Below are positions 6,895 to 31,742 of a DNA stretch of 35,746 bases, in pieces; position 1 is the stretch's first letter; the number at the start of each line of letters is the position of its first letter. The DNA comes from Thermoplasmata archaeon (GTDB lineage: Archaea; Thermoplasmatota; Thermoplasmata; Thermoplasmatales; Thermoplasmataceae), in assembly GCA_021820245.1 (NCBI GenBank), contig JAKADT010000008.1, positions 1-35,746 on the forward strand, given 5' to 3'. The position numbers were made by a program, and so were the translations under genes. The notes under the pieces were generated by a model. The model was not told the origin of the DNA. It worked only from the letters and a program-made list of their open reading frames with translations, and did not search any database.

Positions 6895-7752
6895 TTACCT
6901 TGATTTTGCCTCCTGGATCCTTTTTGTTATAAGTTTCTTCATGGATTCAGTATCTATCTTGGTGCCTAAAAAGTCCGCCCTGACTGCTATTGCCAGCTTG
7001 TTTGCAACCGTACGTGATATCTTTCCTCTTTTTGATGGCGGAAGCGATGATATACCCGGATACTTGAACAGGAAACCATGCTTTGGTGAAGGGGTTCCGG
7101 TTCTCATGTGCTTGAAGAATGCCTTTTCCGCACCAAGCACCTGAAATGTGCTGGCTGGGAATTTCACCATGTTCCTCAACCCCCCTGATCTCCATAGCAA
7201 CTCAAGGGCAAGGGAACCACCTATGAGATCCACAGTGTTTGGCATGATCTTTACAGCCATTTCACTGGTGAACTGGAAAAGTTCGGTCCTGAAAGAACAC
7301 ATAGACACACCTATGCCCGCAGATTTCGCAACCATTGAGATAGATGGGTCGGTATCTGCAATTCCAGCCATGGAGCGAAAGTAAAGGCATGGATCATCCT
7401 CACTGTACTCCACCCCTGTAAGTATACCGAATGAATCGAGCTTTTCAAGATAGAGGTTTATTATCTCGGTGATCTCCTCGTATAGAGAATAGAACTTTAT
7501 GAGAAGCCTGTCCTGGGTGAACTCATCTTTTATTCTTTTTTTTCCGTACTCCGTAAGGAGGTCGTGCAGGGAAGGTTCGTTTTTCTCCCTTATCATTTCT
7601 GTTGCGGGAGTCTCTCCCCTTCTCAGGGCGTCGAAAATCTCTGTGAAATTTGTCCTGAGATCTCTGTAAACCCATATCTCTTTTCCGTTCCTTATCTCCC
7701 CGTACCACTTTCTTGTTACTTTCCCTGAATTTTCTGTCATCTGACCTATCAA
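6895..7752 (-). CDS. nop5: Nop5/Nop56-type C/D box RNP core protein (NOP domain), shortened N-terminus
   Basis: ..TQDRLLIKFYSLYEEITEIINLYLEKLDSFGIL.. then GSLALELLWRSGGLRNMVKFPASTFQVLGAEKAFFKHMRTGTPSPKHGFLFKYPGISSLPPSKRGKISRTVANKLAIAVRADFLG, NOP domain signature. Start uncertain (7752, 7740 or 7596). Confidence 0.85.
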   Translation of the reverse strand: MIGQMTENSGKVTRKWYGEIRNGKEIWVYRDLRTNFTEIFDALRRGETPATEMIREKNEPSLHDLLTEYGKKRIKDEFTQDRLLIKFYSLYEEITEIINLYLEKLDSFGILTGVEYSEDDPCLYFRSMAGIADTDPSISMVAKSAGIGVSMCSFRTELFQFTSEMAVKIMPNTVDLIGGSLALELLWRSGGLRNMVKFPASTFQVLGAEKAFFKHMRTGTPSPKHGFLFKYPGISSLPPSKRGKISRTVANKLAIAVRADFLGTKIDTESMKKLITKRIQEAKSR

Positions 7753-8719
7753 CCCTGTTCCTCTTCTCTTCCGGTATTGTGAACTTCCTTACTGCCTTTG
7801 CAGGCTTTTCCTGGACTTTTGATATGAAGTTGACTCTCTTAGGCTTTGGATCAAGCATTACCCGGTCAAAATCAACAACCTTTGTGTCCGTTATCCTGTC
7901 ATGGGAAACCAGCATTTTACCGCTGGCAAGTATCTCATTCGTTTCCGATATTGCAACAACCCTGTCACCACGAATCGGTGTTCCTATGATGGCCTTGATT
8001 CCCCCGGGAAAGAGGTCAGATCCATGTGCAATATTCTGGATTGCCGACGTCTTAACCACTATCTTGCCGTAATCCCTGAAGAGATAATCCATGGGAAAAA
8101 CTATTTTCCTGAGCACACTGCTGTCACCCTCATCGGCTATCTTCTTGGCGTCGCTGAGATCCTGGAGTGTTACCGAATCCTTCTCAGTGAAAATACCGCT
8201 TACCGTCCTTCTGAGATCCATGAGTTGCGCCCCTGTTCCAAGTACATAACCCATATCTGTGCACAGAGTTCTCACATAAGTCCCGGATTCTGATTTTACC
8301 CTGAACAGGATGTCTCTTCCCTTTTTCTCAATGATTTCAAGTTCGTAGATCCATCTCGTTCTGAGACTCCTTGAAACGGCAGATCTTACAGGTGGGATCT
8401 GGTATATCTCCCCCGTGAACTCTTTCATAACCCCTTTTACATCATCTTCGTTGACATCCTCATGGGTGAACATAACGCCAATGTATTCCTTCGGCATTTC
8501 GTGTGCTATCTCCACAAGCTTCACAGCCTTTCCCAGCGCCATTACCAGCACGCCAGTTGCAGATGGATCCAGGGTACCCACATGCGCCACTTTTTCTATT
8601 CCGAGGATGGATCTGACCCAGTAATCAATCTGGTGGCTTGTTGGTCCCTTGGGTTTGTCAATTACTATGAAACCGTCCAGGAAGTCAGCAGAAATTTTTT
8701 CCCTTGATTGATTCATCAA
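7523..8719 (-). CDS. cbf5: tRNA/rRNA pseudouridine synthase Cbf5 (TruB family, H/ACA RNP catalytic subunit) with basic C-terminal tail
   Basis: FIVIDKPKGPTSHQIDYWVRSILGIEKVAHVGTLDPSATGVLVMALGKA (TruB catalytic Asp motif), PUA-like region, then an Arg/Lys-rich tail overlapping nop5. Confidence 0.93.
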   Translation of the reverse strand: MMNQSREKISADFLDGFIVIDKPKGPTSHQIDYWVRSILGIEKVAHVGTLDPSATGVLVMALGKAVKLVEIAHEMPKEYIGVMFTHEDVNEDDVKGVMKEFTGEIYQIPPVRSAVSRSLRTRWIYELEIIEKKGRDILFRVKSESGTYVRTLCTDMGYVLGTGAQLMDLRRTVSGIFTEKDSVTLQDLSDAKKIADEGDSSVLRKIVFPMDYLFRDYGKIVVKTSAIQNIAHGSDLFPGGIKAIIGTPIRGDRVVAISETNEILASGKMLVSHDRITDTKVVDFDRVMLDPKPKRVNFISKVQEKPAKAVRKFTIPEEKRNRVDRSDDRKFRESNKKVVRGDKERKRDMGLQRSQDKFHRDFRRPEKGRDSRNRNDKGEKRTFPARPPYGVRKKKNKR

Positions 8720-9218
8720 TTTTATTCACCACTTCTTCAACCGAAAGAGTATCGGTGTCAATTACAAGATCATAAATGCCTGTAAGGCTATAATCTATTC
8801 CATAGAATTTACGGTACCTGAGACACTCTGATTCCTCCCTCATTTTTACCATTTCGCCGGTTTCGTTGTTCTGGTCACGGTAACTGACCCGCTGGACTCT
8901 TGTGTTGAATGAAGCATTCAGGAAAATCTTGAATGCATCCAGACTGTTCCTGACACAGAGCCACCCGGCCAGTCTTGATTCCAGAACTATGTTGTCGTTG
9001 TCCCGCAGGAACTCAAGAATCATATTATCCTGCTTTTGATCAATCTCAGGCCTGGTTTCAGCATATCTGTTGAATTCTTCTATGGTCATGCCATGATCCC
9101 TGGCAAGTGACCTGAAAAACACCCCTCCTGAAATGAATTTGTATGATAACCTGGAGGCAAGCTGTCTTCCAACAGTGGACTTGCCGCTGCCAATAGGCCC
9201 GCTAATTGTTACCCGCAT
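8685..9218 (-). CDS. cmk: cytidylate kinase (archaeal type)
   Basis: MRVTISGPIGSGKSTVGRQLASRLSYKFISGGVFFRSLARDHGMTIEEFNRYAE...ESRLAGW; P-loop and CMK family motifs; syntenic position. Confidence 0.92.
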   Translation of the reverse strand: MRVTISGPIGSGKSTVGRQLASRLSYKFISGGVFFRSLARDHGMTIEEFNRYAETRPEIDQKQDNMILEFLRDNDNIVLESRLAGWLCVRNSLDAFKIFLNASFNTRVQRVSYRDQNNETGEMVKMREESECLRYRKFYGIDYSLTGIYDLVIDTDTLSVEEVVNKIDESIKGKNFC

Positions 9219-28623: not shown

Positions 28624-29290
28624 GGTCCTTCCCCAATTAGACTTGGATGGTTTCAGGCTGCCACTCTCCATGACAAGGCTGAGATTTATCTGTTCAAGTT
28701 CCTGGTGATCCTTTGCATGGCCATATTCGGATATTGATGCGGATGAATATGACGGTATGGGTGTGATGTCATAGAGAAGGGAGTTGCCGGGATGCAGCTT
28801 CTTTATGAGATCATGCTAGAATCTGCGGTAGAGATCCGAAGAACCTATCTTGTCCATGAGATCGCTGTTTCTCTGTGAGTCCATACCGACAGGAAAAAGG
28901 GTGGAAAGATATGTCCCCTCATACCATGTCTTCACAGATGACATGGGCAACGGCCTCACAACCTTTAATATTGCCAGTGCCAGGATCTTCTGGCTTTCCT
29001 CATTGGTCAGGTAAGATTTCAGGATGTCCTGGATACCAATATGGTTTACAATGTCCAGGATGGGGATGAACTGGCCATAGATCAGTGATCTCTTTGGCAG
29101 CACTGAACTCACCTTCCTGACATCCCCGTCAGTTTCCTTCCCTGCGTATTTGTAATGATATTTGGTGTTCTTGATCACCGGGTCATAGTACGGCGTTCGA
29201 TCATAGACGTAAACAGAATTCTTGACCGGCTTACTGATCCTCTGAACCTTTGCTGTAATGGTGGTAAAAGGCGGGAAATCAGGGATAAAT
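28624..29290 (-). pseudogene. decayed DDE transposase resembling the IS1634/IS4 group (N-terminal part)
   Basis: ..ITAKVQRISKPVKNSVYVYDRTPYYDPVIKNTKYHYKYAGKETDGDVRKVSSVLPKRSLIYGQFIPILDIVNHIGIQDILKSYLTNEESQKILALAILKVVRPLPMSSVKTWYEGTYLS...SDLYRRF*HDLIKKLHPGNSLLYDITPIPSYSSASISEYGHAKDHQELEQINLSLVM, with one in-frame stop and a lost C-terminus. Confidence 0.7.
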
Positions 29291-31078: not shown

Positions 31079-31330
31079 ATGGTAACAAATGTTATCGCAC
31101 TGAGAATAGATGATAACACAGCTGAACTGATTGATAAGTTAATAAAATATAGGTTTGCCACTAACAGGACGGATGCCTTGAGATGGATTATGGAGAACGG
31201 TATGCATAGTGCAAAAAAAACCATAGAGAAAAAGGAAAAAAGTCAAGCCATTATCAAGAAATGGAAAGAAAAAGGGCTTCCTGAACTACCTCGTGACCTT
31301 TCAGAGATTTCAATTCGAGAGAGGGATTAG
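31079..31330 (+). CDS. VapB-like ribbon-helix-helix antitoxin
   Basis: MVTNVIALRIDDNTAELIDKLIKYRFATNRTDALRWIMENGMHSAKKTIEKKEKSQ..; RHH fold pattern, directly upstream of a PIN-domain gene. An alternative ATG lies at 31067. Confidence 0.8.
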   Translation: MVTNVIALRIDDNTAELIDKLIKYRFATNRTDALRWIMENGMHSAKKTIEKKEKSQAIIKKWKEKGLPELPRDLSEISIRERD

Positions 31331-31331
31331 A

Positions 31332-31742
31332 GTGAATTATATTGATACAAATGTCATAATTTCATTCCTTAACAGGGGTGACGTTAATCATGCAAAAGCA
31401 TCTAAAATTTTAGGCCATTGTGGTAAAATGGTAACGTCCTCCATCACTATTTTGGAATTGAAGTCCGTTCTTCCTAGGACAACAAAATTGGGCGCGGATG
31501 AAATAGAAGCTTTTGTCGACTATTTACCTGAAATTAATGTTGATGTTCCAGAGGTGGACATGAATAAAGTAGTTAACAAGGCCGGCGAGATTGCATTCGC
31601 CATAAGAATGAAAACCCTGGACACACTGCATCTATCAGCAAGCATGGTGCTCGAGGCATATGACTTTGTGACTTTTGACCATGAATTCGCTGAAAAGGAA
31701 AGAGAAATAGCAAATATTGGGATAAAAATCAAGTCTGGATAA
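31332..31742 (+). CDS. vapC: PIN-domain toxin (VapC-like)
   Basis: (GTG start) MNYIDTNVIISFLNRGDVNHAKASKIL..SSITILELKSVL..TLDTLHLSASMVLEAYDFVTFDHEFAEKE; PIN acidic residues D-T-N, E, D..H, TFD. Confidence 0.87.
   Translation: MNYIDTNVIISFLNRGDVNHAKASKILGHCGKMVTSSITILELKSVLPRTTKLGADEIEAFVDYLPEINVDVPEVDMNKVVNKAGEIAFAIRMKTLDTLHLSASMVLEAYDFVTFDHEFAEKEREIANIGIKIKSG

Follow-up and report, generated by a model that had tools for sequence, protein, structure and literature searches.

Can two conserved housekeeping genes of an archaeon share DNA on the same strand, so that the end of one protein and the beginning of another are read from the same nucleotides in different frames? This question is raised by a contig of 35,746 nt from a Thermoplasmata archaeon (assembly GCA_021820245.1, contig JAKADT010000008.1; we call this whole stretch of DNA the window), where the open frame of cbf5, encoding the H/ACA RNP pseudouridine synthase, runs far into that of a gene encoding a short protein of the Nop5/Nop56 type. 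Long same-strand overlaps in microbial genomes are usually annotation errors, which makes the cbf5/nop case unusual. In one survey, all 715 co-directional prokaryotic overlaps of more than 60 bp were found to be misannotations (Palleja et al. 2008, PMC2478687). The overlap described here has the same geometry, co-directional and longer than 60 bp, but differs from the surveyed cases by its presence in 12 genera and by the traces of selection in both frames. We estimate at roughly 0.86 the probability that this same-strand, protein-coding overlap is genuine and old. We found no earlier report of it in the literature searched, which misses most subscription journals.

The cbf5-nop locus

The two frames share exactly positions 7523-7752 of the minus strand, i.e. 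230 nt if Nop is counted from the TTG at 7752 where its frame opens. These are the coordinates of the preliminary description of this DNA, which had drawn attention to the overlap of two open frames, and they are exact. The Cbf5 frame (7523..8719, minus strand) ends with a TGA at 7525-7523. The Nop frame contains an ATG four codons after the TTG, at position 7740. Counted from this ATG the gene spans 6895..7740 on the minus strand, the protein has 281 aa (285 aa if it starts at TTG 7752) and the dual-coding stretch, which holds the end of the Cbf5 tail and the Nop N-terminal domain, is reduced to 7523..7740 (218 nt). The third position of Nop codons is the first position of Cbf5 codons.

The identification of the two genes as cbf5 and nop, also made in the preliminary description, is borne out by profile matches above the respective cut-offs. 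Cbf5 scores 381.6 bits with the equivalog profile NF003280 (cut-off 242) and 309.8 bits with TIGR00425 (cut-off 238), and its PUA domain matches PF01472 with 41 bits. Its catalytic motif (H46 G48 T49 L50 D51 P52) is invariant in 51 sequences, including the conserved aspartate. The Nop protein matches the Pfam Nop profile PF01798 with 111 bits (cut-off 25.4), the match covering its C-terminal half. It does not reach the cut-off of the aNop56 equivalog NF011121, scoring 149.9 of the required 452 bits, and neither does any of the 201 genomes in our sample of the class. Hence, the low score reflects class-wide divergence, and we file the protein as a short Nop5-type protein rather than as a certified aNop56 equivalog. 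Its best sequence match in the PDB is the aNop56 of entry 3id5 (E = 8.4e-50), and the best fold match of the whole AF2 model is the Nop5 of S. solfataricus (3pla_A, TMq 0.74 over 261 columns). Throughout the order, Nop proteins are short and have a reduced N-terminal domain.

The nop gene is present in a single copy in the assembly, the genome being about 80% complete. In archaea nop and the fibrillarin gene are usually neighbours. Here, fibrillarin is encoded on another contig (G000:C7:3058-3624), unlinked to nop, and the usual neighbourhood is therefore absent. Read along the minus strand, the genes come in the order cmk, cbf5, nop. The CMP kinase gene cmk (8685..9218, minus strand; TIGR02173, 155.5 bits, over the cut-off) lies directly upstream of cbf5 and overlaps the start of its frame by 35 nt; the two genes are likely in the same operon. 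An EMC3/TMCO1-like gene is found upstream of cmk and, as read by eye from the open reading frames, the genes of adenylate kinase and secY are upstream too; purF faces the three genes from the plus strand. Elsewhere in the window, reading by eye also picked out a candidate PIN-domain protein of the VapC type (31293-31742) and a short, probably truncated, frame resembling the start of a transposase (28816-29178).

Distribution of the overlap in the family

A genuine long co-directional overlap should be conserved across species. Of 77 genomes searched in the GTDB family to which this one belongs (Thermoplasmataceae), 73 have a Nop homologue. After adding flanking DNA, 68 loci with cbf5 directly upstream of nop could be compared. 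The overlap is present in 42 of these 68 loci and in 12 of the 18 genera (g1, g2, g3, g5, g7, g8, g10, g12, g13, g15, g18 and g19), always in the same phase, and in these loci the Cbf5 frame extends 179-233 nt beyond the W of the WYG motif of Nop. The remaining 26 loci, from six genera (g4, g6, g9, g11, g16 and g17), keep the gene order, but their Cbf5 frame stops around or before this W. Assembly errors are not the cause of the overlap, since it is found in seven single-contig genomes (G004, G020, G021, G029, G034, G057 and G061). Hence, two conserved housekeeping genes overlap by roughly 180-250 nt across most of an archaeal family, always in one phase, and the sister genera lacking the overlap provide a built-in control.

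Two minor observations concern the Nop homologues themselves. Genome G071 has a second copy (G071:C99:14573-14968) that closely resembles sequences of family f4, and for this reason the contig carrying it probably represents contamination of the assembly. In the search of the class, the Nop profile matched twice, at separate places, in most genomes of family f11, a pattern that a split gene or paralogues may explain.

The start of nop

The extent of the overlap depends on where Nop begins. If translation started further downstream, e.g. at ATG 7596, most of the shared stretch would be lost and the N-terminal domain would be a product of annotation inflation. The preliminary description had raised this alternative, and its estimate that 74 nt of overlap would be left is arithmetically correct. 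Mispredicted starts were the commonest cause of long co-directional overlaps in the published survey, where about 57% were attributed to them (PMC2478687). Yet, the N-terminal domain bears the marks of a genuine one. Among 61 sequences W12 is invariant and G14, L39, G42, P56, L58 and R59 are nearly so. The domain aligns in every genus, whether or not the genes overlap, and related stretches are present in the outgroup families f2 and f3. In the AF2 model of Nop (mean pLDDT 92.5) it is a short folded domain, mostly at a pLDDT of about 90, with a beta-beta-beta-alpha-beta order, and it may correspond to the fibrillarin-binding domain of aNop5/Nop56. ATG 7596, for its part, shows no conservation. 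In all genera the homology among Nop sequences starts with the WYG motif, which precedes the cbf5 stop by 185 nt; we therefore rejected the start at ATG 7596, and downstream starts of this kind appear very improbable. Naturally, this result also calls for caution in annotation: rules that trim starts could remove a genuine Nop domain or mark a genuine Cbf5 tail as erroneous.

Between the two candidate starts upstream of the motif (7738..7752, minus strand), ATG 7740 is most likely the right one, giving an overlap of 218 nt rather than 230. It is preceded in the window by a weak and partial Shine-Dalgarno (SD)-like sequence, AGGT (4 nt). Among the overlap loci as a whole, 62% have an SD match of at least 5 nt upstream of the best Nop start, against 16% of background positions.

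A further possibility is that the overlap is there to allow a frameshift or slippage event producing a Cbf5-Nop fusion protein. The window contains a run of eight A close to where the Cbf5 frame ends, and a +1 shift would lead into the frame of Nop. However, the run is not conserved and in many overlap loci the shared stretch lacks any homopolymer of more than 4-5, whereas Nop has its own start codon, often with an SD-like sequence. We thus discarded programmed frameshifting, to which we give next to no credence.

Selection on both frames

If the two frames are genuine, each should show the action of selection. For Nop this is visible in the conserved domain. For Cbf5, we shuffled the synonymous codons of Nop following each locus's own codon usage and scored how long the Cbf5 frame stayed open. 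In the window it runs on without a stop for 60 codons beyond the WYG anchor, while the mean of the null is 8.9 codons (P = 0.003). Open runs in overlap loci range from 58 to 76 codons, with null means of 6 to 24 (P < 0.03 in 40 of 42), whereas those of the 26 non-overlap loci (5-24 codons) equal the null. Within the first 58 codons, the overlap genera have 0 stops in the Cbf5 frame where the same shuffles give 4.09, although, like the open runs, this count holds partly by definition because loci were sorted on whether the Cbf5 frame was open. The third frame shows 4.5 stops in the same stretch for 2.83 expected, and stop avoidance is therefore specific to the Cbf5 frame.

Given the way loci were sorted, we put more weight on two other tests, synonymous divergence and charge. 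The ratio of synonymous divergence in the overlap to that downstream, computed for nop within genera, is 0.39-0.81 in nine overlap genera and 0.75-1.31 in six controls (one-sided p = 0.0004), and in overlap genera the divergence in the overlap is about 0.55 of the downstream level. Avoidance of stops explains only part of this drop, since stops represent 7% of the opportunities for transitions and 27% of those for transversions. In each of the 12 overlap genera, the Cbf5 peptide has a higher net charge than Nop-synonymous shuffles would give it (p = 0.00024). The corresponding excess in non-overlap genera and in downstream stretches has a mean below zero (p = 5e-5 for overlap versus non-overlap). 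In the equivalent stretch of the six non-overlap genera we found neither stop avoidance, nor synonymous drop, nor charge bias.

A low synonymous divergence might also arise from an RNA element, such as a guide RNA or a structured or regulatory site lying inside nop, instead of from Cbf5 coding, because such elements can reduce synonymous change. But Rfam gave no match, stops are avoided in the Cbf5 frame alone and are in excess in the third frame, and the bias in the Cbf5 frame runs towards basic residues. We set this explanation aside as having very little chance of being correct.

Selection on the Cbf5 tail does not appear to act at the level of individual residues. Counts of substitutions in overlapping frames (OLGenie-like) give a median dNN/dNS of 0.92 for Cbf5, against 0.79 in controls (p = 0.61), and charge-changing substitutions show no site-by-site depletion in the tail, where only the total charge is biased. 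For these reasons, the tail appears to be selected for openness, disorder and an overall basic composition, not for particular residues. One might argue instead that Nop alone has a function in the shared DNA and that the Cbf5 tail is meaningless read-through, its openness being a by-product of Nop composition. The lack of measurable conservation at individual sites and the predicted disorder of the tail agree with such a scenario. Yet, Nop composition does not keep the frame open, as shuffles put stops within a few codons and the equivalent stretch of non-overlap genera does contain stops; moreover, synonymous suppression and charge bias are limited to overlap genera. We thus regard mere read-through as distinctly unlikely.

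The comparison of orthologues proposed in the preliminary description hence reveals signs of selection in both frames, the Cbf5 frame being kept open and basic in the overlap genera alone. It had also supposed that both frames are translated. The results support this in so far as both frames are under selection, and they suggest translation of both; they modify it in that the Cbf5 part is a disordered tail and the shared stretch is likely the shorter one.

The Cbf5 tail and its possible roles

Cbf5 consists of a folded core (TruB and PUA domains, about residues 10-290) followed by a basic tail of about 104 residues. Most of the core has a pLDDT above 90 in the AF2 model, while residues 319-383 and 394-398 are below 50, and the tail is predicted to be disordered, with a pLDDT of about 40-60. 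In overlap genera the overprinted peptide is rich in Arg and Lys, and codon choice gives it a net charge of +10 to +20. The part of Cbf5 encoded in the overlap thus appears to be a disordered tail under compositional selection rather than a conserved domain, an example of a new protein segment selected for charge and openness atop an older folded domain. Judging from its composition and its position beside the PUA domain, the simplest role for such a tail would be to provide further contacts with RNA in the H/ACA particle, and it might be kept as a useful basic, disordered extension whose composition, not sequence, is selected.

Eukaryotic Cbf5/dyskerin also has charged C-terminal extensions, which archaeal Cbf5 is described as lacking (PMC7991803). 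The tail described here is likewise charged, probably partly unstructured and placed after the PUA domain, but it has a separate origin, in most genera from overprinted nop DNA. A closer parallel in terms of gene arrangement is the nested overlap of rnpA and rpmH in Thermus (Feltens et al. 2003, as cited in PMC9841429). As summarised there, it also involves two RNA-related proteins encoded in different frames of one strand over a long stretch in a prokaryote. The Thermus rpmH, following the same summary, is wholly contained in rnpA and a single initiation site serves both start codons, whereas in cbf5/nop a 3' end lies on a 5' end, with about 1 kb separating the starts.

How might the two proteins be made? 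The arrangement suggests a single mRNA on which cbf5 would be translated through to its far stop, while nop would be initiated separately at an ATG within the cbf5 reading frame, often after an SD-like sequence. With the cbf5 stop placed about 200 nt beyond the nop start, termination-reinitiation is implausible. One might speculate that ribosomes elongating cbf5 cross the nop initiation site and thereby set the ratio of H/ACA to C/D proteins, in which case the overlap would be kept partly for this function and not only as a frozen accident. Translational interference would then link two RNA-guided modification machines. We consider this unlikely.

Origin and history of the overlap

Most Cbf5 open frames in the outgroup families of the order are 284-318 aa long, too short to include a tail (lengths of 384 aa in f27 and 340 aa in f28 were set outside this comparison). 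Family f3 also has cbf5 directly upstream of nop, with open frames that range from 33 nt apart to 32 nt overlapping; this set excludes L131/L154, where the Nop frame is broken near the match. The Nop N-terminal domain is therefore the older of the two and the tail, absent from outgroup Cbf5, is the overprinted frame. The simplest route to overprinting would be that cbf5, placed just before a nop5-type gene, lost its stop codon. In an ancestor of most of the family, probably the Thermoplasmataceae, cbf5 would thus have been extended by about 60-75 codons into the nop N-terminal domain, in another frame. Such a scenario fits the model of Fonseca et al. (PMC3887535), in which 3' elongation of the upstream gene is predicted to be the commoner origin of unidirectional overlaps. 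The same model holds that very long overlaps are selected against, and cbf5/nop differs in this respect, as a long overlap has persisted through most of a family.

Was the overlap gained once and kept, or gained and then lost? In the outgroup-rooted tree, g4 and g6 fall outside the rest with weak support (80/41), the non-overlap genera g9, g11, g16 and g17 form a monophyletic clade (99.9/99) and the backbone is weak. Given this backbone, the tree is compatible both with one gain followed by one loss and with a single gain.

The distance between the end of the PUA domain and the Nop anchor is 16-40 nt in ten overlap genera, so that nearly the whole tail is encoded in the overlap in these genera, whereas it is 119-841 nt in the non-overlap genera. 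The latter encode a basic tail in DNA of its own, with a net charge mostly of +9 to +19; in g11 the tail is short and its charge is +6 to +7. Own-DNA tails and overlap are thus largely mutually exclusive. Intermediates with both exist: in addition to the overlap, the genome of the window has an own-DNA stretch of 130 nt and g7 one of 112 nt. We rejected a duplicated 5' end of nop as the source of the own-DNA tails of non-overlap genera, since a profile search gave no match. In g6 (L063-L065), the tail is a basic, low-complexity stretch of about 275 residues encoded in its own DNA and carries a net charge of +32 to +37.
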